64,000 nucleotides of DNA, taken from NCBI RefSeq assembly GCF_001625215.2, contig NC_030387.2, positions 4,244,501 to 4,308,500 of the forward strand, given 5' to 3'. Shown here piece by piece: positions 5,833-36,925 of the stretch (positions are counted from its first letter, which is position 1; every line of letters begins with the position of its first letter). Both the position numbers and the translations under genes were made by a program. A model generated the notes under the pieces. The model searched no databases. It was not told the DNA's origin and saw nothing but the letters and a program-made list of their open reading frames with translations. The stretch comes from Daucus carota subsp. sativus (lineage: Eukaryota > Streptophyta > Magnoliopsida > Apiales > Apiaceae).

Positions 5833-5860
5833 AAAGTGCTATGAAGAGAAAGGTTTAAAG

Positions 5861-15520: not shown

Positions 15521-15775
15521 TATGAGCCAATATGAAGCTCTCGCTGCTGAGGAGAACATTAAAGCAGTTCTGGAGAAAGTAAGGAATAAGACCTCAGAGG
15601 AGCCTGATGCAGTTGTATTCAAAGCACATGCATGAAGGGTGTTTTCGGCAGTGCCGACGACAAATTAAGGCTGCAAGTAGCAAGGCAGAAATGGCTATAA
15701 GTCATTCGCGAGCCATAATGGAGTCTCTAGGAAACAATGTCATGACGGGTAAAATGTCATTTAATTATACTTCTT
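15521..15775 (+). pseudogene. Unrecognised gene remnant
   Basis: ATG at 15521 opens MSQYEALAAEENIKAVLEKV and continues for 37 codons to a stop. The next frame continues with RQIKAASSKAEMAISHSRA and LGNNVMTGK. The composition (charged, helical, codon-like) suggests an old exon with one frameshift near 15630. The end of the scrap, from 15738 on, is where homology with position 1 of the window starts, so copy 1 may carry the same scrap outside the window. I do not know the family. Confidence 0.35.
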
Positions 15776-16345
15776 ATGCTAACTTATCATGTTTTCTATT
15801 ATTCCTGAAAATGGCGTGAAACAAATGTTACATGCGTGCAGTATCACTTTTTTGATGTATATGTAGGTTTCCAAGTTTTTGCAAAGAAAGTTAAAATGCA
15901 ATAAATATGAATCCTAATTCTTTATATATTTGTATATAAGGTAATCATTTTTGATTATGTATGTGTGCAAAATGTTAACTCTTGATGGGGTTCGGGTAGA
16001 CCCAATCGGTTCGGAACGCGTCAGGTATCCATCGGGTCGGGTAAAACTGCCTTTGTACCTCTATCATTTATTGTTATCAAAACTCTGTAAGTATGTATAA
16101 GTATACATAAACACACATAAGTACACATACATCTATTGTTCTCTAAGTAATATAAACACATACGAAAAGTACAGACCCAAATTGGCTTCATACCCAAATC
16201 ACAAATAAAAGACAACATATATACTAGAAACATACTTAACAACTCAAATGGTCCTATTACTGTCCTTTAGTGTTATAGAATGAGACTATCCTGATCCTTC
16301 GAGCAGGTACATGGAAACCAGTGTCCTGATCCTGCCAGCAGTTTT
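15738..16345. repeat. Left flank of segmental copy 2
   Basis: Second copy of the sequence at 1-600. It differs by point changes and a few indels; just before the LTR remnant it has an extra piece with CCTGATCCTTCGAGCAGG and a second partial repeat of it. No gene seen. Confidence 0.85.
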
Positions 16346-16404
16346 TGTAGAAATATAAATATATTCTCATTAAATATTAAATAAATTTTAGCATATTATT
16401 TTAA
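16346..16404 (-). mobile_element. Collapsed copia 3' LTR, copy 2
   Basis: Only 59 bp of the LTR remain, namely the terminal TGTAGAAATATAAATATATT and the opposite end ATTTTAGCATATTATTTTAA, directly followed by the polypurine tract (CTCCCCTTAAG on the plus strand). The matching LTR in copy 1 (601-958) is 358 bp, so about 300 bp was deleted from inside this one. Confidence 0.8.
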
Positions 16405-17790
16405 CTCCCCTTAAGCTAAACTTTTTCTCATGCCAAGTTCTTCTTCGACTCCTTGAAAATGTCCGGCCTCAAAGGTTTGGTAAAGATATCTCTAATTTGC
16501 TCTTATGACTTGCAATATTTAATCACAACTTCTCTTTTCTTCACCAAATCTCGAATAAAATGATATTTGATTCTTATATGCCTGCTCTTCCCATATTTTC
16601 TTTGAGTGCTATAGACTTGCTATCACAATATATAATTGGACTTTCTTTTCTGGCATGCTTTAGGTCTTCGAACACCTATGTGATCCATAAAGCTAAGCAA
16701 CTAGCTAGTGACAAACAAATATATTCCACCTCCGCCGTTGAGAGAGCCACAACTTGTTGTTTCTTTGACATCCATGTAATTGCACTTGAGCCTATGAAGA
16801 AAACATTGTCTGAAGTACTTTTACTATCATCAACACTCTCTGCCCCGTATCTATCGCAATATCCAATCACCTTGGAGTCTTTTTTCTTTTGATAGTAAAG
16901 TCCATCACCAAGTATTCCTTAAACATACCTCAAAATTCTTTTCCGGGCCTCCCGATGTGTCTTCTTTGGTTGCTCCATGAATTTACTAATCAAACTAACA
17001 CCATAGGTGATATCCGGCCCAGTGGCAGTCAAGTATATCAAACTCCCCACAAGACTTCTATAGAATGTTGGATCAACATATTTAGAGTCGTCATCCTTAC
17101 TTAGCTTCAATCAAACTTTAACGGGAGTACAAAGTGGTTTCGCATCTTCCAGTCAAAATTTCTTCATCAAATCTTCCTTTCGAAATTTCTTCATCAAATC
17201 CCTTGCATCTTATTCCTGAGAGAAAAAAATTTTATTTTCCATCTTGCTTCACCGCAATACCAAGAAAGTAGTGAAGTAAGCCTAAATCAGGCATCTCAAA
17301 TTCTCGCATCATATTCTTCTTGAATTCTTCGATGTCATCATGATTGTTTCCCGCAAAAATTAGATCATCAACATATAGGCCAATGATGAGAATATTATCT
17401 TTGTTCTCCTTGATGTAAAGTGTATGCTCAAATGGACACCTTTTGAAACCCATCTTCATAAAATAATTATCTATACGGCTATACCATGCACGCGGGACTT
17501 GCTTTAGGCCATACAAAGCCTTCTTCAACCGATAGACTTTATTCTCCTCATTCTTGTGCACATGGCTTGGTGGTTGATCTATATACACCTCTTCTTGTAA
17601 GACTCCATTCAAAAAGGCAGATTTAACATCCATTTGGTGAACTTGCCACTTGTTTTGAGCTGCCAAAGAAAGTATCAAACGAATTGTTTTAAGGCGTGCC
17701 ACGGGAGCAAAGATATCTTTGTAATCAACACCATACTTTTTCTTGTAACCTTTTACCTCCAATCACGCCTTATGTTTCTCAACTTCACCT
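16405..17790 (-). pseudogene. Copia reverse transcriptase and RNase H remnant, copy 2
   Basis: Duplicate of 972-2330. The reverse transcriptase block at 17232-17762 is open for 176 codons and longer than in copy 1, with KWQVHQMDVKSAFLNG, LYGLKQVPRAWY and YVDD, running on to MPDLGLLHYFLGIAVKQDGK. The RNase H (ITWMSKKQQVVALSTAE) is at about 16676-16870, preceded by stops. It is a dead copy, but its reverse transcriptase core is the best kept of the older copia pieces in the window. Confidence 0.9.
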
Positions 17791-19265
17791 TGTGCATTTA
17801 GCTTTGTTTTTTAAATCCACTCGACTCCAATGGCTTTCTTCCCTTTGGGTGCTTCAACTAACTCCCATCTCTGATTTCTTTCAATTGAATCGATTTCTTG
17901 ATCCATGGCGTGTCTCTATTCATTTTCTTCAGTGGCATCTTGAACTTTCTTTCTCTTTCTTCCATTCCCACGAAGCTTCCTCATTGAAAATTACATCATG
18001 GATAATTATAACATTCCTTGTGAGGGGATTTTATAATTTGTATGCCTTAAAAGCTTCACTATAGCCAACAAAGTTGCATTTTTCATATTTATCGTCAAGT
18101 TTTCCTTCCTTTTCATCGGGTACATGAGAGTAACTATTAATAGGTACACTTTTAATAGGTGAATGATTAAGAACATAACATGCACATGCCACTGCTTCGG
18201 CCCAAAAACATCTTAGGCAAGCTACTTCTTTTCAACATACTCCGGACAAGCTCCATAATTATTCGGTTCTTCCTCTCGGCCACCCCATTTTGTTGAAGGG
18301 TTGAAGGTACCGTTAGTTGGTGACAAATTCCATGCTTCCTTAAGAAACTTCCAAATTTTCGTGGGACATATATTCACCACCACGATCAGATCTTAGTGTC
18401 TTTAAAGAACACCCACTTTCTTTCTCCACAAATGCTCTAAAATCTTTAAATATTTCATATACTTGAGACTTTTCTTTGAGAAAATAACCCATATCTTACG
18501 GCTATAGTCATCAATAAAAGTGAGGAAATAAAGACTACCTCCAATAGAGTTTCTGCGCATAGGTCCATATAAATCTGAATGTACCAACTCCAAAGGTTTT
18601 TTAGCTCGCCATGCCTTGCCTTTTGGAAATGGATCTCGATGATGCTTGCGAAAAACACAATCTTCACACACTTGATCTTGCCTTTAAATACTTGGGATGC
18701 CTGTCACCATATGGCCTTTACACATCTTAGATAGAGTGATAAAACTCAAGTGATTATATCAAAGATGCCAAAGACAAGACTTATCATTCACAATATTAGC
18801 AAAGCATGGAAGAGACTCACTTCGAATTTACAATGGAAACATTTTGGTTGATGTCATCTTTACTCTCGCAACAAGGACCCCATTTTTATCTTTGATCTCA
18901 CAAAAATCATCTTTAAAATTTACATCATGCCCCTTTATTAGAGGTTGCGCAACACTTAAAAGATTATTTTTAGGATCGGGAACATAATAAAAGCTAGAGA
19001 TATAATTTGTACCTTGCTTTGTTCGGATAGGAACATCACCACAACCTTTGACAATAAGCCTTTTGTTGTCCCCCGTCTTTACTTCTCGTTGAACACTTTC
19101 ATCAAAATTCACAAAGCAATTTTTATTTCCAGTCATGTGGTTACTACAACCACTATCGATATACCAAAAGTCTTCAAGAGATTCTTCTTGAACATTAATA
19201 ACAAGAAGCATGCTTTCATCTTTCTCCTCAACATTCTCATGTAGAAAATTTGAATTATCTTTTTC
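17791..19265 (-). pseudogene. Copia integrase and protease remnant, copy 2
   Basis: Duplicate of 2331-3903 without the 81-bp duplication. 18402-18671 encodes the integrase N-terminal part (CEDCVFRKHHRDPFPKGKAW, then LELVHSDLYGPM) with a frameshift at WVIF/WVYF near 18487. 18828-19286 is open for 152 codons and encodes the protease region with WYIDSGCSNHMTGN, here with the usual Cys after DSG. Its first residues come from LTR sequence fused in frame at the 19266 junction. Gag is absent. Confidence 0.88.
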
Positions 19266-19367
19266 ATCAACACAAAAGACTATCAACTCAAAAGTCCATT
19301 CTAGAACCTTTCAATAATATTCTAAAGAATAAGAATATTAAATAAAGTTTAGCTTATTATTTTAACA
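19266..19367 (-). mobile_element. Partial copia LTR, 5' end only (minus), copy 2
   Basis: About 102 bp of LTR ending at 19367, with both GTTGATAGT- and GTTGATGA-type repeats kept, joined to pol at TGATGA. It corresponds to 3903-3989, where one of the two repeats has been lost. Confidence 0.8.
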
Positions 19368-19470
19368 GTTTTTGGCATGTTACACCGTGAGGAAAACCTA
19401 GGAGAGTATAGTTAATCAACTTGGATCGGTCAAATCTTGTCATTTCTGAAAACCTAAAGGGGGGACTAGT

Positions 19471-20244
19471 CTAGGTGTCTACAACAAAAGAAATTGCAGG
19501 CAAAACTATTTTCTCAACACCAAGATTTGACCGCTTTTGTTCCCGCACATCCATCAGTGTCTTGCACTTACCTAGTCTTCTATACTGAAATCGCAAAGCA
19601 ATAAGGGGTACTTCTGCAACTTTGTCTCCAAAAATTCTTACACTTGCAACTGTGACAACTTTAGTCGTTTTCTCTAAGATCACAACATAAAAGCCTCGAT
19701 AATCTAACCGTTTCACCTCCGATGGCCTGCTAAAGATTACATCTTCAGCAACATCCTTCCCATTCCAAGGTTCTTTTACAATCTGGAAACATTCATGCAT
19801 CATAGTAACAGACTGATTCAGCTTTATGGTTGTCTTGACATTAATCTCATTTTCCTCATTCTTTAAAATAGTCCAACTTAAATTATTGTCCCCAACCATA
19901 AATGTTTTTCCCAACAATTCACCAAGGCCAGCATATATGCCCTTGCACTTTTCACTACAAAAACATTTCTTTCTCTCTGGGTCTGCAACACAATACTCAC
20001 CTAGGCACATTACATGAAACTGTTGTTTGCATTGATCATACGTATTAGTTGGTTCTGAATCATCTCCTGAACACTTCTGACCACAAATTGTGCAACAACA
20101 AGTTGGGAAGTACCAAAACTCACTAGCAGAAACCAATGAAAAACCAAGACATTGTGGGTGGAAAGCAGATGTCTTGGTTTTTAAGAGGTTTCTGCTATAG
20201 AGTTTTGGTACTTCCCAATTTGTAGTTGCATAATGTGTGGCCAC
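19471..20244 (-). pseudogene. 257-codon chimeric PHD-GNAT frame across palindrome centre
   Basis: The longest open piece of the captured gene. The frame starts in the antisense of the right arm, so the first ~25 residues (MATHYATTNWEVPKLYSRN...) are novel. It then crosses the 16-nt spacer (20153-20168) and enters the sense reading of the left arm. From there it encodes the end of PHD finger 1 (SAFHPQCLG, FWYFPTCCCTICGQKC), the second finger half (YDQCKQQFHVMCLGEYCV, KKCFCSEKC), the LSWTILKNEE block and a GNAT domain with LDYRGFYVVILEK, RIFGDKVAEVPLIAL and YRRLGKCKTLMD (acetyl-CoA motif; a Cys at the last position is usual in this family). The zinc ligand in NTCDQC is changed to NTYDQC. The N-terminal half of the parent protein is missing, so enzyme function is doubtful. 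Parent family: plant IDM1/ROS4-type acetyltransferase. Confidence 0.7.
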
Positions 20245-20893
20245 AAGTGTCGAGGAGATGATTCAGAACCACTAATACGTGTGATCAATGAAAACAAAAG
20301 TTTCATGTAAAGTGCCTAGGTGACTATTGTGTTGCAGATCTAGAGAGGAATAAATGGTTTTGTACGGAAAAGTGCAAGGGCATATATGCTCGCCTTGGTG
20401 AATTGTTGGGAAAAACATTTATGGTTGGGGACAATAATTTAAGTTGGGCTATTTTAAACAATGAGGAAAATGTGATTAATGTCAACACAACCACAAAGCT
20501 AAATGAGGTTCTTAGTGTGATGCATGAATGTTTTCAGTCTGTAAAAGAACCTTGGAATGGGAAGGATGTTGCTGAAAATGTAATCTTTAGCAGGCCATCG
20601 AAGGTGAAACGATTAGATTATCGAGGCTTTTATGTTGTGATCCTAGAGAAAACGGCTGAAGTTCTCACAGTTGCAACTATAAGAATTTTTGGAGACAAAG
20701 TGGCAGGAGTACCCCCTTATTGCTATGCGATTTCAGTATAGAAGACTAGGTAAGTGCAAGACACTAATGGATGTCTGGGAACAAAAGCTGTCAAATCTTG
20801 GTGTTGAGAAAATAGTTTTGCCAAGATCTGATGGATCCAAGTTGATTAACTATACTCTGCTAGGTTTTCTTTACAGTGTAACATGACAAAAAC
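20169..20893 (+). pseudogene. PHD-GNAT fragment, right arm of small palindrome 2
   Basis: Plus-strand arm, similar to 4717-5500. 20403-20741 is open for 112 codons (MLGKTFMVGDNN to FGDKVAGVPPYCYAIS), and the last motif is shifted to another frame (AMRFQYRRLGKCKT at 20689-20886). Compared with the other right arms it lacks about 60 bp at its 3' end (after ATAGTTTTGCCA), which encodes ISSVVDTWTSP elsewhere. It ends against the LTR at 20894. Confidence 0.75.
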
Positions 20894-21230
20894 TGTTAAA
20901 ATAATAAGCTAAACTTTGTTTAATATTTTTATCATTTACAATATTATTGAAAGGTTCTAGAAATGGACTTTTGAGTTGATGACATTTGCATTTCAAAATG
21001 GTTCATGTACGTATATTAAATATGGTGCATGTACTAGAAGTATTATACTAGGTTCCATGTAGTCCTATAAATGGGACCATCTTCCAAGCTTTGTAAACAT
21101 AAAAAAAAAAATTCTTTTGAGTGTAATACATTTTTGAGTTTTATATATTTTGTGTGAGAAGTTGTGTGGATTATTGAGGAAAAGTTTTCTCTCTTTAATC
21201 TCCAACAAATAATATATTTATATTCCTACA
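20894..21230 (+). mobile_element. Copia LTR B (plus), first of three LTRs framing large palindromes
   Basis: A 337-bp LTR with TGTTAAAATAATAAGC start and TATTCCTACA end. A TATAAATG box at 21066-21073 is intact, followed by the AAGCTTTGTAA region. The primer-binding-site-like TGGTATGAAGAG follows at 21233. Being in plus orientation and upstream of the large inverted repeat 21401-24674, it is placed to transcribe that repeat. Confidence 0.85.
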
Positions 21231-21257
21231 AAGTGGTATGAAGAGAAAGGTTTAAAG

Positions 21258-21310
21258 ATGGCATCCAACAACAATATGTTGAAACCTCAACTTCCTCGTT
21301 TGACGGGAAA
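21258..21310 (+). pseudogene. Copia gag start, truncated
   Basis: ATG at 21258 encodes MASNNNMLKPQLPRLTGK and then breaks at 21310 into a minus-oriented LTR piece. It is the same leader as at 5861, 25036 and 28772. Confidence 0.75.
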
Positions 21311-21400
21311 GACTATCAACTCAAAAGTCCATTCTAGAACCTTTCAATAATATTCTAAATAACAAAAATATTAAATAAAGTTTAGCTTATTATTTTAACA
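21311..21400 (-). mobile_element. Partial copia LTR, 5' end only (minus)
   Basis: 90 bp from GACTATCAACTCAAAAGTCC to TTATTTTAACA, the minus-strand start of the LTR. Fused to truncated gag on its left and to the PHD-GNAT arm on its right. Confidence 0.8.
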
Positions 21401-23006
21401 GTTTTTGGCATGTTACACCATGAGGAAAACCTAGGAGAGTATAGTTAATCAACTTGGATCGGCCAGATCTTGTCATTTCTGAAAACCTAAATGGGGGACT
21501 AGTCTACGTGTCTACAACAGAAGAAATTGGAGGCAAAACTATTTTCTCAACACCAAGATTCGACAGCTTTTGTTCCCGCGCATCCATAAGTGTCTTGCAC
21601 TTACCTAGTCTTCTATACTGAAATCGCAAAGCAATAAGAGATACTTCTGCCACTTTGTCTCCAAAAATTCTTACACTTGCAAGTGTGACAACTTCAGTCA
21701 TTTTCTCTAAGATCACAGCATAAAAGCCTCGATAATCTAATCGTTTCACCTCCGATGGCCTGCTAAAGATTATATCTTCAGCAACATCCTTCCCATTCCA
21801 AGGTTCTTTTACAGACGGGAAACATTCATGCATCACAGTAACAGCCTGATTCACCTTTATGGTTGTCTTGACATTAATCATATTTTCCTCATTCTTTAAA
21901 ATAGTCCAACTTCAATTATTGTCCCCAACCATAAATGTTTTTCCCAACAATTCACCAAGGTCAGCATATATGCCCTTGCACTTTTCACTACAAAAACATT
22001 TCTTTCTCTCTGGGTCTGCAACACCATACTCACCTAGGCACATTACATGAAACTGTTGTTTGCATTGATCACACGTATTAGTTAGTTCTGAATCATCTCC
22101 TGAACACTTCTGACAATGCAACAAGTTGGGAAGTACCAAAACTCACTAGCAGGAACCTCTAACAAACCAAGACATTGTGGGTGGAAAGTAGATGTGCACT
22201 AATCACATAATATTAAATCTCTTATTTCCAAAAACTAAGCAAAATTCATCATGTGGACTTTGTTGCATAGTCTCACTTACTGAACCAATTTTGCTGTCAT
22301 TCGCTTTCATCTTGATTCATTTCACTTTGTTGTCAAGAGCTCCCATTTCCTCCTCGACTTGCATTAGAGATCTTTCGTCTTCAAGAAATAAATGGGCTGC
22401 AAGTATGTAATAAGTACTCTTCTGATGATACTTAAAAAGACTAAGATTGAAGATACCCTCACAGCAAGAACAATCAACCCCTTCATTAGTCACCATTCCT
22501 TCTCCCATCACACTACTATCTTTTTTCCTGTAATACACTTTTGCCGAAGGTTTAATCACTCCACTTCTAAGACACAGACCAAATTTACCCCTGACCTCCC
22601 TCTTCCACCAGCCTTCCTCTTATTACCCCTATTCGACACCTTAGAATCTTTCCTTCCGGGCACAAACAAGTCACTAGAACTATGCTCCTCCAATTCAGTA
22701 TACCAGTTATATTCTCACTGTCTGATTCCCTGCACAATTCGTTATAAAATTCTGCAAACTTTTCTTCTTGAGACAAAGTATCCTCAACCAAAGCATCATC
22801 TTTTACCTTCCCTATCATGCAAGCCAACATCCTTTCCCCATAAACATCACCAGAACTCATTCGTCACTTGTTGCTTGTCGAAGCATATATCAACACTTAC
22901 TTTTCCAGATTCTAATTCAACAGCATTATCAATTTTTTCCACACACTCTGATTCAAGAACATCATCATCATGAGTTAATTCCACATTCTTTGATCCAAGA
23001 ACATTA
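21401..23006 (-). pseudogene. IDM1-like captured gene, left (antisense) arm of large palindrome C
   Basis: A longer minus-strand piece of the PHD-GNAT gene. In protein order: a leader block around 22585-22860 (RRMSSGDVYGE, then CRESDSENITG); a zinc-type block GVDCSCCEGIFNLSLFKYH at about 22430-22500, like the Cys-rich motif preceding the PHD finger in plant PHD-GNAT proteins; a decayed PHD finger 1 around 22140-22260; the second finger half (CDQCKQQFHVMCLGEY, FCSEKC) at 21912-22139; and GNAT sequence at 21504-21881 with LDYRGFYAVILEK and YRRLGKCKT. Lesions include a stop after FMVGDNN (TTAAGT to TTGAAGT at about 21914) and several frameshifts. The same stop is present in arm 25179-26784, so it predates the tandem duplication. 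Confidence 0.75.
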
Positions 23007-23050
23007 GCACCCAACTTTGATTGGCATGTTACTAAGTTTTCCCAACAGTG

Positions 23051-24674
23051 TAATGCTCTTGGATCAAAGAAAGTGGAAAGAACTCATGATGATAATGTTC
23101 TTGAATCAGAGCGTGTTTAAAGAATTGATAATGATGTTGAATTAGAATCTGGAAAAGTAAGTGTTGATGCTTCGACAAGCAAGAAGAGACGGCTGAGTTC
23201 AGGTGATATTTATTGGGAAAAGATGTTGGCTTGCATGAAAGGGAAGGTAGAAGATGATGCTTTGGTTGAGGATACTTTGTCTGAAGAAGAAATTAATTTT
23301 TTCAAAATTTTGTAACAAATTGTGCAGGGAATCAGACAGTGAGAATATAATTGGTGTCACTGAATCAAATGAGAATAATTCTAATGACTTGTTTGTGCCC
23401 GGACGGAAGGATTTTAAGGTGTCGAATGGGGATAGAAAGAGGAAGGATGGTGGAAGGGGGAGGTCGGGGGTAAATTGGCTCTGTTTCTTAGAAGTGGAGT
23501 GATTAAACCTTTGACAAAATTATATTACAGAAAAAAAGATAGTAGTGTGATGGGAGAAAGAATGATGACTAGTGAAGGGGTTGATTGTTCTTGTTGTGAG
23601 GGTGTCTTCAATCTTAGTCTTTTTTAGTATCATGTGAAGAGTACTTATCACAAACTTGAAGCCCATATATTTCTTAAAGACGGAAGAGATCTAATGAGAA
23701 TCGAGCAGGAAATGGGAGCTCTTGACAACAAAGTGAAAGGAATCAAGACGAAAGCGAATGACATCAAAAATGGTTCAGTAAGTGAGACTATGCAACAAAG
23801 TCCACATGATTGATTTTGCTTAGTTTGTTGGGAAATAGGAGATTTAATATTATGTTATCAGTGCACATCTGCTTTCCACCCACAATGTCTTGGTTTGTCA
23901 GAGGTTTCTGCTATAGAGTTTTGGTACTTCCCAACTTGTAGTTGCACAATGTGTGGCCAGAAGTGTCCAGAAGATGATTCAGAACCACTAATACGTGTGA
24001 TCAATGAAAACAAAAGTTTCATGTAAAGTGCCTAGGTGACTATTGTGTTGCAAATCTAGAGAGGAAGAAATGGTTTTGTACGGAAAAGTGCAAGGGCATA
24101 TATGCTCGCCTTGGTGAATTGTTGGGAAAAACATTTATGGTTGGGGATAATAATTTAAGTTGGGCTATTTTAAACAATGAGGAAAATGTGATTAATGTCA
24201 ACACAACGACAAAGCTAAATGAGGCTCTTATTGTGATGCATGAATGTTTTCAGTCTGTAAAAGAACCTTGGAATGGGAACGATGTTGCTGAAAATGTAAT
24301 CTTCAGCAGGCCATCGAAGGTGAAACGATTAGATTATCGAGGCTTTTATGTTGTGATCTTGGAGAAAACGGCTGAAGTTCTCACAGTTGCAACTATAAGA
24401 ATTTTTGGAGACAAAGTGGCAGAAGTACCCCCTTATTGCTATGCGATTTCAGTATAGAAGACTAGGTAAGTGCAAGACACTAATGGATGTCTGGGAACAA
24501 AAGCTGTCAAATCTTGGTGTTGAGAAAATAGTTTTGCCATCAATTTCTTCTGTTGTAGACACCTGGACTAGTCCCCCCCCCCCCTTAGGTTTTCAGAAAT
24601 GACAAGATCGGATGGATCCAAGTTGATTAACTATACTCTTCTAGGTTTTCTTTATAGTGTAACATGCCAAAAAC
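23051..24674 (+). pseudogene. IDM1-like captured gene, right (sense) arm of large palindrome C
   Basis: Inverted copy of the arm at 21401-23006. In order: leader (DALVEDTLSEEE, CRESDSENIIG) at about 23180-23500; the zinc-type block GVDCSCCEGVFNLSLF at about 23580-23625, then a stop; PHD finger 1 at about 23820-23960 (TSAFHPQCLGLSEVS, FWYFPTCSCTMCGQKC); the second finger half, disrupted near 24020-24060; and GNAT sequence at 24119-24457 plus a shifted end at 24405-24602 (AMRFQYRRLGKCKT). It carries a poly-C run of 11 at about 24574-24584, where sister copies have 5-7. It ends against LTR C. Confidence 0.75.
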
Positions 24675-25008
24675 TGTTAAAATAATAAGCTAAACTTTAT
24701 TTAATATTTTTATCATTTACAATATTATTGAAAGGTTCTAGAATGGACTTTTGAGTTGATGACATTTGCATTTCAAAATGGTTCATGTACCTATATTAAA
24801 TATGGTGCATGTACTAGAAGTATTCTACTAGGTTCCATGTAGTCCTATAAATGGGAACATCTTCCGAGCTTTGTAAACGTAAAAAAAATTTCTTTTGAGT
24901 GTAATACATTTTTGAGTTTTATATATTTTGTGTGAGAAGTTGTGTGGATTATTGAGAAAAAGTTTTCTCTCTTTAATCTCGAACAAATAATATATTTATA
25001 TTCCTACA
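24675..25008 (+). mobile_element. Copia LTR C (plus)
   Basis: A 334-bp LTR between palindromes C and D. TATAAATG is intact at 24846-24853. It is followed by TGGTATGAAGAG (25011) and the gag start at 25036. It could end transcripts from LTR B and start transcripts through palindrome D. Confidence 0.85.
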
Positions 25009-25035
25009 AAGTGGTATGAAGAGAAAGGTTTAAAG

Positions 25036-25088
25036 ATGGCATCCAACAACAATATGTTGAAACCTCAACTTCCTCGTTTGACGGGAAA
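25036..25088 (+). pseudogene. Copia gag start, truncated, unit C/D junction
   Basis: Same truncated leader as at 21258, broken after LPRLTGK by the next partial LTR. Confidence 0.7.
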
Positions 25089-25178
25089 GACTATCAACTC
25101 AAAAGTCCATTCTAGAACCTTTCAATAATATTCTAAATAACAAAAATATTAAATAAAGTTTAGCTTATTATTTTAACA
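25089..25178 (-). mobile_element. Partial copia LTR, 5' end only (minus), unit D
   Basis: Copy of 21311-21400 at an offset of 3778. Confidence 0.8.
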
Positions 25179-26784
25179 GTTTTTGGCATGTTACACCGTG
25201 AGGAAAACCTAGGAGAGTATAGTTAATCAACTTGGATCGGTCAGATCTTGTCATTTCTGAAAACCTTAATGGGGGACTAGTCTACGTGTCTACAACAGAA
25301 GAGATTGGAGGAAAAACTATTTTCACAACACCAAGATTCGACAGCTTTTGTTCCCGCGCATCCATAAGTGTCTTGCACTTACCTAGTCTTCTATACTGAA
25401 ATCGCAAAGCAATAAGGGATACTTCTGCCACTTTGTCTCCAAAAATTCTTACACTTGCAAGTGTGACAACTTCAGTCATTTTCTCTAAGATCACAGCATA
25501 AAAGCCTCGATAATCTAATCGTTTCACCTCCGATGGCCTGCTAAAGATCATATCTTCAGCAACATCCTTCCCATTCCAAGGTTCTTTTACAGACGGGAAA
25601 CATTCATGCATCACAGTAACAGCCTGATTCACCTTTATGGTTGTCTTGACATTAATCATATTTTCCTCATTCTTTAAAATAGTCCAACTTCAATTATTGT
25701 CCCCAACCATAAATGTTTTTCCCAACAATTCACCAAGGTCAGCATATATGCCCTTGCACTTTTCACTACAAAAACATTTCTTTCTCTCTGGGTCTGCAAC
25801 ACCATACTCACCTAGGCACATTACATGAAACTGTTGTTTGCATTGATCACACGTATTAGTTAGTTCTGAATCATCTCCTGAACACTTCTGACAGTGCAAC
25901 AAGTTGGGAAGTACCAAAACTCACTAGCAGGAACCTCTAACAAACCAAGACATTGTGGGTGGATAGTAGATGTGCACTAATCACATAATATTAAATCTCT
26001 TATTTCCAAAAACTAAGCAAAATTCATCATGTGGACTTTGTTGCATAGTCTCACTTACTGAACCATTTTTGCTGTCATTCGCTTTCATCTTGATTCATTT
26101 CACTTTGTTGTCAAGAGCTCCCATTTCCTCCTCGACTTGCATTAGAGATCTTTCGTCTTCAAGAAATAAATGGGCTGCAAGTATGTAATAAGTACTCTTC
26201 TGATGATACTTAAAAAGATTAAGATTGAAGACACCCTCACAGCAAGAACAATCAACCCCTTCATTAGTCACCCTTCCTTCTCCCATCACACTACTATCTT
26301 TTTACCTGTAATACACTTTTGCCGAAGGTTTAATCACTCCACTTCTAAGACACAGACCAAATTTACCCCTGACCTCCCTCTTCCACCAGCCTTCCTCTTA
26401 TTACCCCTATTCGACACCTTAGAATCTTTCTTTCCGGGCACAAACAAGTCACTAGAACTATGCTCCTCCAATTCAGTGTACCAGTTATATTCTCACTGTC
26501 TGATTCCCTGCACAATTCGTTATAAAATTCTGCAAACTTTTCTTCTTGAGACAAAGTATCCTCAACCAAAGCATCATCTTTTACCTTCCCTATCATGCAA
26601 GCCAACATCTTTTCCCCATAAACATCACCAGAACTCATTCGTCTCTTGTTGCTTGTCGAAGCATATATCAACACTTACTTTTCCAGATTCTAATTCAACA
26701 GCATTATCAATTTTTTCCACACACTCTGATTCAAGAACATCATCATCATGAGTTAATTCCACATTCTTTGATCCAAGAACATTA
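25179..26784 (-). pseudogene. IDM1-like captured gene, left arm of large palindrome D
   Basis: Copy of 21401-23006. The leader block is open at 26363-26674 (STSNKRRMSSGDVYGEKM start). The zinc-type block GVDCSCCEGVFNLNLFKYH is at 26095-26289, the second finger half at 25690-25917 and the GNAT part at 25282-25659. It shares the stop after FMVGDNN with unit C and has private changes such as LGVVKIVFPP in place of LGVEKIVLPP. Confidence 0.75.
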
Positions 26785-26828
26785 GCACCCAACTTTGATT
26801 GGCATGTTACTAAGTTTTCCCAACAGTG

Positions 26829-28410
26829 TAATGCTCTTGGATCAAAGAATGTGGAAATAACTCATGATGATAATGTTCTTGAAACAGAGCGTGTTTAAAG
26901 AATTGATAATGATGTTGAATTAGAATCTGGAAAAGTAAGTGTTGATTCTTCGACAAGCAAGAAGAGACGGCTGAGTTCAGGTGATATTTATTGGGAAAAG
27001 ATGTTGGCTTGCATGAAAGGGAAGGTAGAAGATGATGCTTTGGTTGAGGATACTTTGTCTGAAGAACAAAATTTTTCAGAATTTTGTAACAAATTGTGCA
27101 GGGAATCAGACAGTGAGAATATAATTGGTGTCACTGAATCAAAGGAGAATAATTCTAATGACTTGTTTGTGCCCAGACGGAAGGATTTTAAGGTGTCGAA
27201 TGGGGATAGAAAGAGGAAGGATGGTGTAAGGGGGAGGTCGGGGGTAAATTGGCTCTGTTTCTTAGAAGTGGAGTGATTAAACCTTTGACAAAATTGTATT
27301 ACAGAAAAAAATATAGTAGTGTGATGGGAGAAAGAATGGTGACTAGTGAAGGGGTTGATTGTTCTTGTTGTGAGGGTGTCTTCAATCTTAGTCTTTTTTA
27401 GTATCATGTGAAGAGTACTTATCACAAACTTGCAGCCCATATATTTCTTAAAGACGGAAGAGATCTAATGAGAGTCGAGCTGGAAAAGGGAGCTCTTGAC
27501 AACAAAGTGAAAGGAATCAAGACGAAAGCGAATGACATCAAAAATGGTTCAGTAAGTGAGACTATGCAACAAAGTCCACATGATTGATTTTGCTTAGTTT
27601 GTAGGGAAATAGGAGATTTAATATTATGTGATCAGTGCACATCTGCTTTCCACCCACAATGTCTTGGTTTGTCAGAGGTTTCTGCTATAGAGTTTTGGTA
27701 CTTCCCAACTTGTAGTTGCACAATGTGTGGCCAGAAGATGATTCAGAACCACTAATACATGTGATCAATGAAAACAAAAGTTTCATGTAAAATGCCTAGG
27801 TGAATTTTGTGTTGCAGACCTAGAGAGGAAGAAATGATTTTGTAGGAAAAAATGCAAGGGCATATATGCTCGCCTTGGTGAATTGTTGGGAAAAACATTT
27901 ATGGTTGGGACAATAATTTAAGTTGGGCTATTTTAAACAATCAGGAAAATGTGATTAATGTCAAGACAACCACAAAGGTGAATCACGCTCTTATTGTGAT
28001 GCATGAACTTGGACTGGGAAAGATGTTGCTGAAATGTAATCTTTAGCAACCCATCGAAGGTGAAACGATTAGATTATCGAGGCTTTTATGTTGTGATCAT
28101 GGAGAAAACGGCTGAAGTTCTCACAGTTGCAACTGTAAGAATTTTTGGAGACAAAGTGGCAGAAGTACCCCCTTATTGCTATGCGATTTGAGTATAGAAG
28201 ACTAGGTAAGTGCAAGACACTAATGGATGTGCGGGAACAAAAGCTGCCGACTCTTGGTGTTGAGAAAATAGTTTTGCCTGCAATTTCTTCTGTTGTAGGA
28301 ACTTGGACTAGTCCCCCCCTTTAGGTTTTCAGAAATGACAAGATCTGATCGATCCATGTTGATTAACTATACTCTACCAGGTTTTCTTGACAGTGTGACA
28401 TGCCAAAAAC
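26829..28410 (+). pseudogene. IDM1-like captured gene, right arm of large palindrome D
   Basis: Copy of 23051-24674 with extra damage. The leader block 27001-27276 is open (MLACMKGKVEDDALVEDTLS); the zinc-type block is near 27355-27400. PHD finger 1 near 27598-27740 is the best preserved in the window: CLVCREIGD, LCDQCTSAFHPQCLG, FWYFPTCSCTMCGQK, giving the C-x2-C...C-x2-C...H-x2-C order of a PHD finger. Beyond it there are small deletions (about 27735-27745, 27905, 28010-28030), so the GNAT part is out of frame. It ends at 28410 against LTR D. Confidence 0.75.
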
Positions 28411-28744
28411 TGTTAAAATAATAAGCTAAACTTTATTTAATATTTTTATCATTTAGAATATTATTGAAAGGTTCTAGAATGGACTTTTTAGTTGATGATA
28501 TTTTGCATTTCAAAATGGTTCATGTACCTATATTAAATATGGTGCATGTACTATAAGTATTCTACTAGGTTCCATATAGTCCTATACATGGGACCATCTT
28601 CCAAGCTTTGTAATCATAAAAAAATTTCTTTTGAGTGTAATACATTTATGAGTTTTATATATTTTGTGTGAGAAGTTGTGTGGATTATTGAGAACAAGTT
28701 TTCTCTCTTTAATCTCCAACAAATAATACATTTATATTCCTACA
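28411..28744 (+). mobile_element. Copia LTR D (plus)
   Basis: A 334-bp LTR upstream of the longest gag-pol remnant. The TATA position reads TATACATG (28583-28590) and the primer-binding site reads TGGTATAAAGAG, both worse than in LTRs B and C. Confidence 0.85.
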
Positions 28745-28771
28745 AAGTGGTATAAAGAGAAAGGTTTAAAG

Positions 28772-31236
28772 ATGGCATCCAACAACAATATGTTGAAACC
28801 TCAACTTCCTCGTTTCACGGGAACGAATTACAAACGATAGAGCATTCAAATAAAGGTGTTATATGGCTCTCTATATCTTTGGGAGATTGTGGAAAATGGT
28901 TATGAAGAATCGACAAATCAAGCCAATCTTTCGCCATAACAATTTAACACTCTAAAGGAGAATCGCAAGAAGGACAAAACGGCTCTATACTTTATTTACC
29001 AAGTGGTTGATGAAGTTATTTTTGAGTGAATTTCCACGGCATACAAAGCATACAAAGCTTTAAAGCTTTCTACGAAACATCCTCAACAAAGCATACAAAG
29101 GTGAAGAAAAGGTAAAAATTGTGAGACTTCAAGTTTTAAGAGGTGAATTTGATTTACTTAAAATGAAGGAAAGTTAAACGGTGGATGAATTCTATAATCG
29201 GACAATTTCGATTGTTAATCAAATTCCTGTCAATGGAGAAGAAATTATGGATATAAGAGTCTTGGAAAAGATTCTTGGTAGCATGACTCGAACATATGAG
29301 CATGTTGTTCCAGCCATTGAAGAATCAAAAGATTTGAATACTTTCTCTCTTGAAGAATTGTTGGACTCACTACAATCTCACAGACTTCGAATTAAGCAAT
29401 TTGATTCATGTCCTTCCTAGCAAGGTTTTCAAATTTAAGACACCAATTGGGGTGGTTTTAGAGGAAGAGGTGGAAAAGGATCATTTTAGAGGAAGAGGTG
29501 GAAAAGGATCATTTCGTGGTCGAGGACAAAGAAGAGGAAAAATACAAAGTGAAAATTCAAATTCATATCAAAGAGGAAGAGAAAGAGCTCGTGGAGGTTA
29601 CAATGGAAGAGGAAGAGGTAATTCTTTTTATTTTCAATGCCATTATTGTCATAAAATTGGGCATATGAAAAAAGATTGTTACAAAAGAATTAATGATGAA
29701 AAAGATAATTCAAATTTTCTACATGAGAATGTTAAATAGAAAGATGAAAGCATGCTTCTTGTTAGTAATGTTCAAGAAAAATCTCTTGAAGACGTTTGGT
29801 ATATCGATAGTGGTTTGTAGTAACCACATGACCGGAAATAAAAATTGCTTTGTAAATTTTGATGAAAGTGTTCAACGAGAAGTCAAGACAGGGGACAACA
29901 AAAGACTCATTGTCAAAGGTTGTGGTGATGTTCCAATCCGAACAAAGCAAGGCACAAATTATATCTCTAGCGTTTATTATGTTTCCCATCTTAAACATAA
30001 TCTTTTAAGTGTTGGGAAACTTTTAAGAAAGGGGCATGATGTGAATTTTCAAGATGATTTTTGTGAGATCAAAGATAAAAATGTGTTGTGAGAGTAGACA
30101 TCAACCAAAATGTTTTCACTAAAAATTCAAAGTGAGTCTCTTCCATGCTTTGCTAATATTGTGAATAATAAGTCTTGGCTTTGGCATCTTCAATATAATC
30201 ACACCATCTAAGATGTGTAAAGGTCATATGGTGAGAGGCATCCCAAGTATTCAAAGGCAAGATCAAGTGTGTGAAGATTGTGTTTTTGGAAAGCATCATC
30301 GAGATCCATTTCCAAAAGGCAAGGCATGGCGAGCTAAAAAAACCTTCGGAGTTGGTATATTCAGATTTGCATGGACCTATGCGCACAGATTTTATTGGAG
30401 CTAGTCATTATTTCCTCACTTAAATTGATGACTATAGCCGCAAGATGTGGGTTTATTTTCTCAAAGAAAAATCTCAAGTATTTGAAATATTTAAAGATTT
30501 TAAAGCATTTGTGGAGAAAGAAAGTGGGTGTTCCTTGAAGACACTAAGATCTGATCGTTGGGTTGAGTATATGTCCCAAGAAAATTTGGAAGTTTCTTAG
30601 GGAAGCATGGAATTTGTCACCAACTAACGGTTCGTTCAACCCCTCAACAATATGGGGTGGACGAGAGGAAGAACCGAATAATTATGGAGCTTGTCCGGAG
30701 TATGTTGAAAAGAAATGGCTTGCATAAGATGTTCTGGGCTGAAGCACTAGCATGTGCATGTTATGTTCTTAAACGTTCACCTATTAAAAGTGTACAAGGA
30801 AAGACTCCACAAGAAACTTGGAGCCGCAAGAAACCACGTGTCTCTCACTTAAGAATTGTTAGAAGCATTAGTTACTCTCATGTACCCGATGAAAAGAGAG
30901 GAAACTTAAGGATAAATATGAAAAATGCCTCTCTTTTGGCTATACTGAAGCTTAAGCTTCTAAGGCATACAAATTATACAATCCCCTAACAAGGAATGTT
31001 ATAATTAGCCGTGATGTAATTTTCAATGAGGAAGCTTCGTAGGGATGGAAGAAAGAGAAAGAAATTTCAAGATGCCGCTAAAAAAAATAAATGGAGACCT
31101 GCCATGGATCAAAAAATTGATGCAATTGAAAGAAATCAAACAAGAGAGTTAGTTGAAGCACCTAAAGGGAAGAAACTCATTGGAGTCAAGTGGATTTACA
31201 AAACAAAGCCAAATGCACAAGGTGAAGTTGAGAATT
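28772..31236 (+). pseudogene. Copia gag-pol remnant (plus), copy 2
   Basis: Starts MASNNNMLKPQLPRFTG and runs through gag with several stops. 29181-29420 is an open gag piece (MDEFYNRTISIVNQIP), and about 29440-29739 is the Arg/Gly-rich tail with the zinc knuckle CHYCHKIGHMKKDC at about 29638-29679. Pol follows: protease (29740-30090), pre-integrase with KMCKGHMVRGIPS (30210), integrase (SDLHGPM, IDDYSRKMWVYF, LRSDRWVEYMS) and 30657-30989. It stops at the start of reverse transcriptase (KLIGVKWIYKTKPNAQGEVE at about 31230). At the catalytic site GGEY has become WVEY. The 30-bp GGFRGRGGKGSF-type repeat is duplicated at 29455-29515. Confidence 0.88.
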
Positions 31237-31300
31237 ACAACCCATAGAGCATTCAAATAAAGGTGTTATATGGCTCTCTATATCTTTGCACCGGTTTCAT
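31237..31300 (+). repeat. Direct repeat of a gag fragment at the copia end
   Basis: ATTACAACCCATAGAGCATT... to TATATCTTTG repeats 28826-28881. After it the sequence continues with CACCGGTTTC, exactly as at 5992 in copy 1. Pol is thus framed by two copies of a ~57-bp gag piece. Confidence 0.8.
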
Positions 31301-31920
31301 TATATATTTCCACCCATTGTATTTATACCTGTTTTATTTATACTCAAAACCTAATATAGCTTAAAAATTATAAATACAAAACACTCAAAATTTAATATAT
31401 CTCAGAAATTATATTATAATAAATCCAAAAGATTGTTTACATTAGGAAGAAGTACAATATTAATTACAATCTCTCAACTAACTCGGTTACGTCAAACATT
31501 TTATGATCTTTGTGCACTCTCATTTTCTTGCATTTCCTAGTTGCCATCTTCCATGAATAAAATAGTTTACGTTAGTACATATAAAACATATAGAAAATTA
31601 CGCTTCAAGAAAACATGAATTGCGAATATGAATTACCTGACAAGAGACATTCAAGAGTAAAAAACTGAGCCCAAATCTCTCGATGATTTCCTTTTTTCCA
31701 CAACTCTTGAAACCAAGATCCTACCAAATATAAAAGATAACGTATTGCCAGAATAAAAACTTGAGTTTGAAACTTGTAATATAGTGTTTGAGTTGTTTCT
31801 CTTACCACTTCTCAGTTCAGGTTAGAATTTTTCTGAGAAAGCATGACTATGTCATATATGTACTTCATATCAAAATATCCACATTCTGTGCCTCCTACTT
31901 GTTGAGGACACCATAAATAA
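31301..31920 (-). pseudogene. Ulp1-like protease C-terminal exons, copy 2
   Basis: Duplicate of 5993-6565. On the minus strand about 31815-31910 reads PQQVGGTECGYFDMKYIYDI, with the Cys-Gly of the Ulp1 active site kept (copy 1 has TECRY). 31605-31808 is open and includes GSWFQELWKKGNHREIWAQF after a plausible acceptor. This is part of a CACTA-type element gene, not a host gene. Confidence 0.6.
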
Positions 31921-32042
31921 ACAAGATTTAGCAAATAATAATTAAATAAATGAGGAAGAAAATAATGTAAACAAAAGTAAGTTATACGTGAACCTCATGC
32001 GGTGTAAAATACGTATATCTCATCAAATCACTTATTGAACTA

Positions 32043-32044
<2 letters not shown>

Positions 32045-32104
<60 letters not shown>
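32045..32104. repeat. (AT)30 microsatellite
   Basis: A run of 60 bp of AT at the position that has only 10 bp (7064-7073) in copy 1. Confidence 0.95.
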
Positions 32105-32107
<3 letters not shown>

Positions 32108-34190
32108 TGGGGCTCCTTAGAAATCCATTCTCTTTAGAGTCCTTGGAGTCCCCTCTCAACACCATTGGATCATATCCTAATCATACGGTCCGAAGTACAC
32201 AAGAAGGTAATCTATTTTAATTTTATAAAACTCTTTAATAGTCCCTAAACATAAGCTCCTAAACAACCCTGCATATCACAACTTCTAATAACACGGGGAT
32301 TGGCTGAGCGACTGTGATTTATAAATTAATGGGGGCTGATATCCCGCACATTCTTTAATCCTACAAATTAGAGCTCGACTTTACACTATAAAGCCCTACT
32401 TCGGTTTAGTTTCAGACGGCAAGACAACTGCACTGGCAGAACATTAACGGCTGTTAGGATTTATGGGTGATAGACTACAGCCAACTTAACATTTTTATGT
32501 ACTTAGATTTATCTAAGTAGAACATACTGTCACAACCAGAGTATGTCTTTGTAGTGTCTTGTTATCACTGTCAACTGTAATGTTTGTATTCTTGGAAGAA
32601 GTTCAATTCACATTGTTCATGCCCCGAGACGCGAAGACCAATGACAGCAAGAATAAAAGACTTCTACTATCAAGATGTTTGACAGCAGTACTACACAAGA
32701 CAGACAGTTGCAAGGTCATGACAGCAAGTTTGTATTTGACAACAACATTGGTTGAAGCTCCGTAGACAGCAAGTTTTAGCTCGCATGACAGCAGAACACT
32801 AGCGTTCCCAACTAAAGAGTACTCATGAAGCCACTGTCATCACAATCTTTGTTTGACAGCAAGTTCTGGTGTCCCCATGTCATTGGAGATCTTGGATTAG
32901 ATTTGATTCCACATCAAGTCAATCCTGTGGCAGATAAAGATGTTTAACCTTAGGAATGCTGCAGAAAAGATGTTTTGTAGCAGACCTACCAAGCCTACAG
33001 CTTGAAACCCAAGAATACATAAAGTCGTGGATAGCTATCTGGAAAAGAATGAAGTCACTATTCATTCACTTCTGTTGTACTCAAAATAGTATGTTCCTAG
33101 GTTGCTTTTCATAATGTAACAACTGTTGATTAGCATTTTAGGAATGTCACATGGGCTGTAATCTGTAAAGTAGCCGCAAAAGCGAAAGTCTACTTCATAG
33201 ATCTGCAGAATCCGTGGTGCCTAAGTAAGGTTAAACTCTGATATAAGTATAGGAACCTTAACTTGAGCCGGTAAGCAATTTCTGAAAATCAAACAGAGAG
33301 AACACCCAGGGAGTGAAACAAAAGTGCATTCCTTTAGATAACTGAAGCTCGAGAATTATTTTTCGAGGTTGAAGGAAAACAGCAAAATAAATAAACCATT
33401 TATTTATGAAGTTAAACTACAGTTTCATAACTTCGTTTGTATCTTTCTCTACTGAACCATTTATATCTTTAATTAGTTGTTGAATTATGATTTGAATTTA
33501 GCAGTATTGCATTCAACCCCCTTCTGCAATACATTCGAGGACCAACAACGGCAATGAGCGACGGTATGCCCATTTTCTTGAATTGCAGAATAACCCCCTT
33601 TCTTGTGCTTTTAATTGTTGTGGGTTGTATGTACACGGCTTAATTTGGGTTTCTCACTGATTAAGTTGTTTGATAATGTGCTGCACCTTTGTGGGACTAC
33701 TAGTAGGGCAATGTGCTGCAATTCTATGTAAACAGGACTTTTAATTTTGTGTTTTTCCTGTGCTGTTAATGGTTGTAGAGTATGTGTACAAATTGGGTTT
33801 GGTGATCTACAAATATTTTTTATGATATATTATGAGTTACATCATATTCCCTATTAAATGTACGAATAATGGACTTTTTTTTATTAATGCAAAGCCTATA
33901 TTAGTAAGTACACCCGATTTGTGAACTGCAGGAACTAGGTGTGTCCTGCATAGTGTATAGTTTTATGTATAGTGGAATGTTAAATGTTTGGCTGCTTCTA
34001 TTTAGTTTTAGATAGAGTGAAACCACGGACAATGCACTATATGTTTTGCTTAACAGTGTGTGTTGTGTCCTGCATTTATGTAATTTTTGTATTGTCGAGC
34101 ATGATAAAAAGGTACTATGCATATCTATGGTACTACAATACTTGGAATTATATCATTTATTTGAATAATGTTTTTATTTTCTGAATGCAG
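32105..34190. repeat. Duplicated non-coding segment, copy 2
   Basis: This matches 7074-9064. A private 38-bp insert with a T-run (33875-33912) is present. The open stretch 32559-32765 is the decayed equivalent of 7508-7804 and has no recognised domain. It ends in the acceptor CTGAATGCAG at 34190. Confidence 0.55.
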
Positions 34191-34510
34191 GACAAAGGAA
34201 AAAGAGAATTAATCTTATCAGAATACCTTGGTTGGACAGGTGGGAAAACCCTAATAGTGGTGCACATGTCCAACCAAATGCCGGTAATGCCAAGTTGAGA
34301 GAAACTATAGAGATGACTCAAAGCATAATTCTGAGAAATGGAAGGAAACCACCAAGCAGAATCCTGAGAAGGGGAAGGAAACTACCAAGAATCGTTGCGG
34401 AGAATAAAAACTATGAAAACAAAAACTAAAGTGTTAAAAACTCAGAAGCTAATTCAAGTGGTGACGCGTCTAGTGATGAAGTTGAGTTCATGACCCCGTA
34501 AGATAAGTTT
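34191..34510 (+). pseudogene. Unrecognised exon remnant, copy 2
   Basis: Parallel of 9065-9440. Open from MDRWENPNSGAHVQPNAGNA to NYENKN, then a stop, with the frame going on through SSGDASSDEVEFMTP. Here the stop at IELT* of copy 1 is absent (IEMTQ), so between them the copies show the older frame was open for about 120 codons. Family unknown. Confidence 0.45.

Positions 34511-35747: not shown

Positions 35748-35749
<2 letters not shown>
34511..35749. other. Duplicated non-coding segment, copy 2
   Basis: This matches 9441-10034 and 11588-11760 of copy 1 with no insertion at the empty site (about 35421-35438). It holds about 240 bp (35130-35370) that copy 1 lacks. No coding sequence recognised. 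Confidence 0.5.

Positions 35750-35792
<43 letters not shown>

Positions 35793-36690: not shown

Positions 36691-36723
<33 letters not shown>
35750..36723. mobile_element. Copy-2-specific insertion between TA microsatellites
   Basis: TA runs at 35750-35789 and 36692-36723 bracket about 900 bp with no counterpart in copy 1. The edges carry loosely inverted sequence (CAACTACAAACCACC on the left, and CAAATACAAATCAATC on the minus strand of the right), hinting at a decayed terminal-inverted-repeat element. The centre (35880-36130) is a CCACCTCC-type low-complexity stretch that produces proline- or glycine-rich frames with no domain. Family not identified. Confidence 0.35.
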
Positions 36724-36728
<5 letters not shown>

Positions 36729-36872
36729 TTATTAATGTTATTGCTTTATTTAGTTTAAGTAGTAGTTCTCATCCTTTGCCGATAAATACAAGAAATAGTT
36801 AAATTTAAGATTAGAAATTAAAGAGAAATGAAATGCCTCTATTAGTTGAGATTAAAAGAAACACAACCTGGC

Positions 36873-36925
<53 letters not shown>

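Follow-up and report, generated by a model that had tools for sequence, protein, structure and literature searches.

Among the closest described systems, as presented in the available parts of the cited sources, is VIM4-VIM2 of Arabidopsis Cvi-0 (PMC13213937), an inverted repeat of a DNA-methylation-pathway gene whose palindrome was, like the carrot array described here, reshaped by rearrangement. Its arms are 100% identical in the first exon and intron, and siRNAs and trans silencing were shown. PAI4-PAI1 of Arabidopsis Ws and Cvi (via PMC13213937), also an inverted duplicated gene, has an effect in trans, silencing its homologs by methylation. In Populus, partial inverted copies of ARR17 under relaxed selection lie near palindromes and retrotransposons, as in carrot; these fragments are Y-linked and the parent gene is autosomal, and 24-nt siRNAs and target methylation are reported (PMC9636151). 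The long non-coding hairpin RNA of teosinte Tpd1 (PMC11390486) resembles the hairpin predicted for carrot, and for it 22-nt siRNAs and a target gene were shown, in a gene-drive system. In contrast to these four systems, the carrot array, with pseudogene arms 90% identical, is known from sequence alone.

The maize Mu killer locus (PMC3440606), a partial inverted duplication with a proposed read-through hairpin of ~4 kb, is similar to the carrot array in form and differs from it in being an effective silencer with a transposon as its target. Adjacent inverted pseudogenes are found in rice as well (PMC2708354); the pairs there, 83% and 96% identical, make small RNAs, and their stems measure 154–185 nt, as against 1.6 kb in carrot. 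For one such rice pair, no small RNAs were seen at the parent gene, and where rice pseudogenes had antisense small RNAs (145 of them did), the 24-nt class made up over half of these RNAs (PMC2708354).

Here, we analyse a palindromic array in a window of 64,000 nucleotides on carrot chromosome 7 (C7). Among the papers listed on IDM1 with inverted repeats, siRNAs, and transposons, on carrot IDM1, and on carrot small RNAs, siRNAs, and inverted repeats, no title or abstract opening mentions the locus. With a probability of roughly three in four, we consider it a relic of DNA rearrangement formed by insertion, foldback, and tandem duplications, most likely left behind when DNA was miscopied and now in decay.

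Structure and Folding Capacity of the Array

Two units of 3.7–3.8 kb each are situated between three plus-strand copia LTRs at 20894, 24675, and 28411 (Table 1). Each unit is an IDM1-like palindrome with ~90% identical arms of ~1.6–1.7 kb and a loop of ~45 nt; each arm additionally takes in the initial ~87 bp of an LTR. Self-comparison places the palindromes at 21315–24760 (88.5%) and 25093–28496 (87.6%), and with gap columns excluded, the arms agree at 90.4% (1512/1672) in B2 and 90.3% (1486/1645) in B3. These values bear out a sequence-only reading of the same DNA, which had described arms of ~1.6 kb, antisense then sense, around a 44-nt loop. Its statement that each of the three LTRs adjoins an inverted repeat needs a correction for LTR 3, which opens into gag/pol and not into a hairpin. 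The window holds four palindromes, and just two of them have a full LTR on the upstream side.

Table 1. Features of the palindromic array and of the surrounding segment copies (positions in the window).
Feature	Position	Strand	Remarks	Basis
Segment copy A	1–13951 at least			self-comparison
3′ LTR of copia element (copy A)	599..958	-	polypurine tract on inner side, target duplication AAAAC on outer side	
copia internal region (copy A)	959..3907	-	pol to gag; left side of large palindrome	
Short IDM1-like palindrome (copy A)	3902..5588	.	centre deleted	
LTR of segment copy A	5501..5833	+	TATA box TATGAAT	
Segment copy B of tandem duplication	15738..38330	+		self-comparison
copia internal region (copy B)	16372..19269	-		
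Unit B1	19282..20823	.	short palindrome without full LTR upstream	self-comparison, arm alignment
LTR 1	20894..21230	+	5′ LTR copy, TATAAAT kept; then PBS and ~50 bp of gag	
Unit B2, antisense arm	21315..23020	-	~87 bp of LTR and IDM1-like	
Unit B2, sense arm	23066..24760	+	IDM1-like up to 24674; remainder belongs to LTR 2	
LTR 2	24675..25008	+	TATAAAT kept	
Unit B3, antisense arm	25093..26795	-		
Unit B3, sense arm	26842..28496	+	IDM1-like up to 28410; remainder belongs to LTR 3	
LTR 3	28411..28744	+	TATA box TATACAT; leads into gag	
copia gag and following part of pol	28747..31234	+	right side of large palindrome	

The arms are pseudogenes, assigned as IDM1-like by two domains above the Pfam cut-off: IDM1_C in two of the four arm pieces searched (E = 4.5e-30 in B1 and 2.1e-16 in B2) and TDBD in one of the four (E = 1.1e-10 in B2). 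The piece at 26899–27273 gave no match in the Pfam search. The proposed PHD-GNAT identity stands for IDM1_C and TDBD; the PHD part was recognized by eye only and not confirmed by Pfam. In a PDB search, one arm ORF matched TFIID subunit 3 and UHRF1 weakly, in four entries with E between 0.34 and 0.53, and Rfam (gathering threshold) and tRNA scans gave no matches.

The array LTRs start with TGTTAAAA and end with CCTACA. They are copies of the 5′ LTR of one copia element, because a PBS, identified by eye, and gag come after them. On inspection, no polypurine tract precedes the array LTRs, as had been noted for the later ones; it is present at the sole real 3′ LTR (599–958, minus strand). The element itself is broken and retains the copia hallmarks, namely TG...CA LTRs, PBS, polypurine tract, RVT_2, and a 5-bp target duplication. 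Two pieces of its internal region in copy B match Pfam RVT_2 and Pol_BBD, and the gag–pol stretch to the right of the array is ~90% complementary to 17776–19269. It should be added that TATAAAT is intact in exactly the two hairpin-facing LTRs and altered in the two non-facing ones (n = 4).

The predicted LTR-to-LTR RNA fold has an energy of −2577 kcal/mol versus −881 to −912 kcal/mol in three dinucleotide shuffles; therefore, chance is no explanation. RNAs begun at LTR 1 or LTR 2 could in principle form more than 1,400 long-range pairs, and the predicted fold provides one of the features that characterize an hpRNA locus, a long inverted repeat foldable within one RNA. Such a locus would also show transcription through both arms, of which the TATA boxes in two LTRs are the one hint, and strand-biased 21–24-nt small RNAs. 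The arms share 243 (B2) and 194 (B3) perfect 21-nt windows, which in principle suffice for Dicer-like enzymes. In line with the earlier expectation that an LTR-started RNA would carry both arms, hairpin RNAs of kilobase size would result from this arrangement if the LTRs act as promoters, and siRNAs from them are possible by analogy with VIM4-VIM2, PAI, ARR17, and Mu killer.

Origin of the Array and Its Copies

We propose that the starting point was an IDM1-like gene copy, truncated and without introns, whose 3′ end was hit by a copia element inserting in the orientation of the gene. We take this step as shown because of the 5-bp target duplication, the polypurine tract, and the LTR ends; the insertion site is the 3′ end of the gene, with the target duplication AAAAC and a gene tail that continues beyond the 3′ LTR. 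The gene copy and the 5′ part of the element would then have been duplicated in inverted form, by foldback or template switch, giving one large palindrome, as suggested by microhomologies at the centre and at the junction; at the left junction, U3 is joined to gag at a common TGATGA. Tandem duplication of the 3.78-kb unit would have used 5 bp of microhomology that gag has with the left junction: the unit junction lies inside gag, and AAAGA (the gag reading in copy A) is common to both. This junction agrees with the earlier view of the units as recombination products and not retrotransposition units. The whole segment of 15–18 kb would have been copied in tandem, before or after the unit duplication, so that it now occupies three or more places; the sequence of copia insertion and foldback is supported by the anatomy and not by the divergence values. 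That the arms lack introns was rejected as evidence for a retrocopy: relatives on chromosomes 8, 1, and 3 and the intact chromosome 5 gene also encode the complete IDM1_C domain within a single open frame, and in a palindrome cluster on chromosome 5 the similarity extends into DNA beyond the gene on its downstream side (83% over 235 columns).

Chromosome 7 has three or more tandem copies of the segment; the array (C7:4263782-4272914) sits in one of them, and the third contains one long palindrome (C7:4228802-4232354). In self-comparison, copies A and B are 95–97% identical in the left part and 86–93% in the right part; the difference was measured at 3.5% for the left part and is 7–14% for the right part. 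Because the two parts differ unequally, a single simple age of segment duplication does not fit, and conversion or uneven rates between the copies must be assumed.

The chromosome 5 (C5) cluster belongs to the same gene subfamily and holds a better hairpin (C5:8398434-8401133; 1.33-kb arms, 96%), so that palindromes of one gene subfamily occur at two unlinked loci; the part of the cluster covered contains no match to the array LTR. The two loci have in common one end-to-beginning fusion. However, a single palindrome ancestral to both was rejected: in the trees, arms cluster by locus (support 0.987–0.988 for the C-terminal part, 0.915 and 0.757 for the N-terminal part), and the centre of the palindrome falls at arm position ~1 on C7 but at ~518 on C5. 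On this basis, foldback probably occurred separately at the two loci, as far as the sequences indicate, although within-locus conversion could also produce trees grouped in this way.

Divergence and Selection

The dS between the intact C5 gene and the C7 arms is 0.19–0.25. Raw differences are 0.099–0.100 from arm to arm, 0.087–0.101 for the LTR pair, and 0.012 between the antisense arms of B2 and B3. The arms are pseudogenes mutating approximately neutrally: dN/dS from arm to arm is 0.96 (B2) and 0.79 (third copy), compared with 0.37 between the intact gene and the paralog on chromosome 3, and differences by codon position are 62/56/38 (B3) and 23/20/22 (B1). The C5 C-terminal pair, with dN/dS = 0.42 (209 codons), counts against a neutral relic.

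Selection on pairing or target match would support a trans silencer without strictly defining it, and neither was detected. G-U-compatible and incompatible transitions stood at 43:40, 39:36, 14:11, 32:27, and 8:5 in five hairpins (lowest p = 0.58), and we rejected selection for pairing on this lack of asymmetry. A conserved target window was likewise rejected, since shuffling the columns gave gene-matching runs of a length not significantly different from that observed (eight groups, lowest p = 0.078). CG cytosines were altered as by deamination at 21–28% in eight C7 arms, with CHH at 8–10%, in a pattern not polarised with an outgroup; on C5, the CpG decay was weaker in two of four pieces (0.12). 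This decay is compatible with past methylation of the arms.

Discussion

The sequence-only reading had suggested that the array may be a transposon-built silencer directed against IDM1-type genes. An intact gene of adequate identity does exist: one IDM1-like relative of 668 aa (C5:9816253-9818274) is matched perfectly by 223 of 9,109 array 21-mers (LTRs counted in) and by 177 of 2,680 21-mers of the C5 palindrome. It is the one target among the four tested with the perfect 21–24-nt stretches by which a trans-silenced homolog would be recognized; each of the other three relatives shares zero perfect 21-mers with the arrays, and silencing of IDM1-type genes in general is thus not supported. That siRNAs from an active hairpin silence this paralog, as VIM4-VIM2 does in Arabidopsis Cvi, gains from these matches, from the hairpin geometry and predicted fold energy, and from the analogy with known precedents. 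Points that count against a mere relic are the length that the palindromes retain, TATAAAT in the hairpin-facing LTRs of C7 (n = 4), palindromes of one subfamily at two unlinked loci, the weaker CpG decay in two C5 pieces, and the uneven divergence of segment copies A and B. We nevertheless regard silencing of the paralog as improbable: the arms drift about neutrally with no signal of pairing or target match, and the "transposon-built" part of the claim is not supported, the C5 cluster being without an LTR match in the part covered. Slimmer still is the chance that the C7 array, with its LTR promoters, and the C5 array, with its 96% arms, both derived from one gene-fragment fusion, jointly supply siRNAs tuning the intact gene, making carrot genome methylation dependent on rearrangement by-products. 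A silenced locus whose 24-nt siRNAs act in cis, by RdDM of the array with no effect on a target gene, has a somewhat less than even chance; it would accord with the CpG-biased pattern in the arms and with the share of 24-nt antisense small RNAs from rice pseudogenes in the available part of that report (PMC2708354), although ordinary CG methylation fits the unpolarised CpG pattern as well. This possibility is compatible with a rearrangement relic and not fully separate from it. If both hairpin-facing LTRs are transcribed, the relic would give hairpin RNA and siRNAs acting mainly on the array itself, with at most a weak effect on the one intact paralog.

Because the inverted repeat has an LTR at either end, a gene-capturing retroelement, mobile as a unit, might be suspected. 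We rejected capture, which is hardly credible given the anatomy: the right LTR has no preceding polypurine tract and is followed by PBS and gag, no target duplication surrounds the unit, and its junction lies inside gag. Moreover, across the genome, no LTR–palindrome unit was found outside C7:4.22-4.28 Mb among the at least 22 LTR and at least 38 arm matches listed. Palindromic arrays are difficult to assemble, and an artefact, e.g., of unsplit palindromic long reads, was considered. It is very unlikely, because substitutions set the arms 10% apart, the trees place them in separate clades, private deletions differ between segment copies, and a separate cluster exists on another chromosome.

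If active, the locus would be a further natural inverted repeat silencing a DNA-methylation regulator, beside VIM4-VIM2, in a crop. If inactive, it would be a clean case of retrotransposon insertion, foldback, and microhomology joins building host-gene palindromic arrays, and a caution against calling every hairpin-shaped locus a silencer. For carrot, according to the available part of one report, a long-read assembly has been published and 630 accessions have been resequenced (PMC10581907), and the array itself offers a readable series of steps, from insertion through foldback to tandem spread.

Structure of the array

The window corresponds to C7:4244501-4308500. Self-comparison and arm alignment confirm the array of plus-strand copia LTRs separated by IDM1-like palindromes that the sequence-only reading had claimed. 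With gap columns left out, the arms of the two palindromes between the LTRs, B2 and B3, are 90.4% and 90.3% identical, and they share 243 and 194 perfect 21-nt windows, respectively. In four arm pieces searched against Pfam, IDM1_C was found in a piece of B1, the unit preceding LTR 1 (105 bits), and in a B2 piece (60.7 bits; cut-off 33), TDBD was found in another B2 piece (41.8 bits; cut-off 23.6), and no domain was found in one B3 arm piece.

Coordinates of the array, the larger palindrome, the segment copies on chromosome 7 (C7) and the palindrome on chromosome 5 (C5); window positions unless prefixed
Feature	Position	Description
Array LTRs	20894-21230, 24675-25008, 28411-28744	
Palindromes between LTRs (B2, B3)	21315-24760, 25093-28496	Arms antisense then sense IDM1-like
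Copia internal sequence, left side of larger palindrome	16372-19269	Minus strand
Copia sequence, facing side of larger palindrome	28747-31234	Plus strand
Segment copy A	1-13951 at least	
Short palindrome, the only one of copy A	3902-5588	
Segment copy B	about 15738-38330	
Palindrome of the third segment copy, leftward	C7:4228802-4232354	Single long palindrome
C5 palindrome	C5:8398434-8401133	2.7 kb; arms 1,333 nt, 95.9% identical; loop 34 nt

A full LTR stands upstream of two of the window's four palindromes. TATAAAT is kept in both hairpin-facing LTRs and altered in the other two (5501, 20894, 24675, 28411; n = 4).

An RNA that begins at the putative LTR 1 start site and runs on into LTR 2 is predicted to fold at −2577 kcal/mol with 1,455 long-range pairs, and that of the next unit at −2522 kcal/mol with 1,431, against −881 to −924 kcal/mol for shuffled controls (three per RNA). 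The array structurally resembles known plant hairpin loci; placing it among the active ones would be unwarranted. The nearest precedent for the silencing idea is VIM4-VIM2 of Arabidopsis Cvi-0 (PMC13213937).

Origin of the array

The most likely origin of the array would be the insertion of a copia element into an IDM1-like gene copy, then foldback, tandem duplication via microhomology, segment duplication and neutral decay of the copies; the order of the tandem steps is one that we infer. The 3' LTR of copy A (599-958, minus strand) is preceded by the polypurine tract AAGGGGAG and followed by AAAAC; in copy B what comes after AAAAC is similar to the gene tail of the intact C5 relative (AAAACTGCTGG...), and at the 5' LTR the gene side ends in CAAAAAC. 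The copia element thus sits within the final codons of an IDM1-like gene copy and is flanked by a target duplication of 5 bp.

Each array LTR has gene sequence, and no polypurine tract, before it and a PBS (identified by eye) and gag after it, indicating that the array LTRs are copies of the 5' LTR. An LTR-inverted repeat-LTR retroelement unit is thereby ruled out, in line with the sequence-only reading, which took these structures to be probably something other than retrotransposition units.

The unit-repeat junction lies about 50 bp inside gag, where gag meets reversed U3 at AAAGA; with gag as read in copy A, AAAGA also occurs at copy B's left junction, and at the left junction U3 and gag join at a common TGATGA. 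A 16-bp stretch at the left junction is present in copy B and the third copy and missing from copy A, and a fusion of gene end to beginning, GTAACATGCCAATCA(A/C)AGTTGGG, is common to the C7 loop and one C5 copy. Template switching or end joining at microhomologies could account for these marks.

Self-comparison also places the array in a larger palindrome, which itself sits inside a tandem segment duplication; another flank match at C7:4223790-4225738 hints at further segment copies. Between copies A and B, identity is 95-97% up to and including the array and 86-93% to its right, a gap that one duplication date does not explain; the left part looks as if it had been homogenised or recopied later.

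Relatives and possible targets

A DNA search of the genome with one sense arm gave at least 38 matches, and those listed include the C7 cluster, another one at C5:8.390-8.410 Mb, a single copy at C5:9816363-9817954 and weaker matches on C3, C9 and C1. The single copy keeps an open frame over 674 codons (668 when counted from the first ATG) and is constrained, with dN/dS of 0.37 against the C3 relative (dS 1.08). The C5 cluster has a period of about 8.65 kb, and its palindrome, of the same IDM1-like subfamily and with 506 perfect 21-nt windows between arms, is a better hairpin candidate than the window array.

The array LTR was unmatched in the three C5 stretches compared against it; joined C5:8389628-8402577 gave gene and flank matches to the window, and none of the listed matches of more than 60 columns lay inside the LTR. 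Arms cluster by locus in both C- and N-terminal trees (15 rows each). Flanking DNA is common to the C7 and C5 clusters at 83-92% (12720-15130; C5:8394349-8396584), which implies a larger composite segment copied between chromosomes.

The 21-mer test covered four open-frame relatives (C5, C3, C8 and C1, the C8 and C1 frames being partial) and left out split-exon relatives and the short C9 match. Among these four, the C5 gene is alone in having perfect 21-mers in common with the arms (7-65 for each C7 arm and 26-43 for each tested C5 stretch); the C3, C8 and C1 relatives share none with them. Perfect matches to the C5 gene make up 223 of 9,109 21-mers of the array, LTRs included, and 177 of 2,680 of the C5 palindrome.

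Selection and decay

Hairpin selection received no support from any of three tests (G-U pairing, dN/dS and gene-match runs). G-U-keeping and pair-breaking changes were about equal in all five hairpins (lowest p = 0.58), with a small, non-significant surplus of the former in each. Arm-to-arm dN/dS was 0.96 for B2 and 0.79 for the third copy, and for the C5 pairs 0.96 in the N-terminal and 0.42 in the C-terminal part. Gene-matching runs showed no significant excess length over shuffled columns in any of eight groups (lowest p = 0.078). Hairpin activity would nevertheless be compatible with neutral decay, since ARR17 fragments are likewise reported to be under relaxed selection (PMC9636151).

The gene's CG cytosines read as deaminated at 21-28% in eight C7 arms (CHH 8-10%) and at 29, 36, 12 and 12% in four C5 pieces (CHH 6-7%). 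This CG-biased decay, the changes being unpolarised, would agree with past methylation of the copies.

Neighbouring sequences

The array flank at 31300-32000 (also C5:8389762-8390000) is a dispersed repeat with at least 40 further matches at 68-91%, segment copies included; an ORF near the C5 stretch resembles a transposon-associated Ulp1-type protease. A younger copia-like element, with an apparent target duplication GTTTT, lies at 56421-62442; its terminal repeats measure about 231 bp and are 99.1% identical to each other. Coding pieces near the array gave Pfam matches to NAM (NAC), leucine-rich-repeat and Nudix (39477-39827, 42666-43955, 62866-63210), and a short ORF at 49501-49845 ends in GPSKRHH, which we take to resemble an IDA-like peptide.
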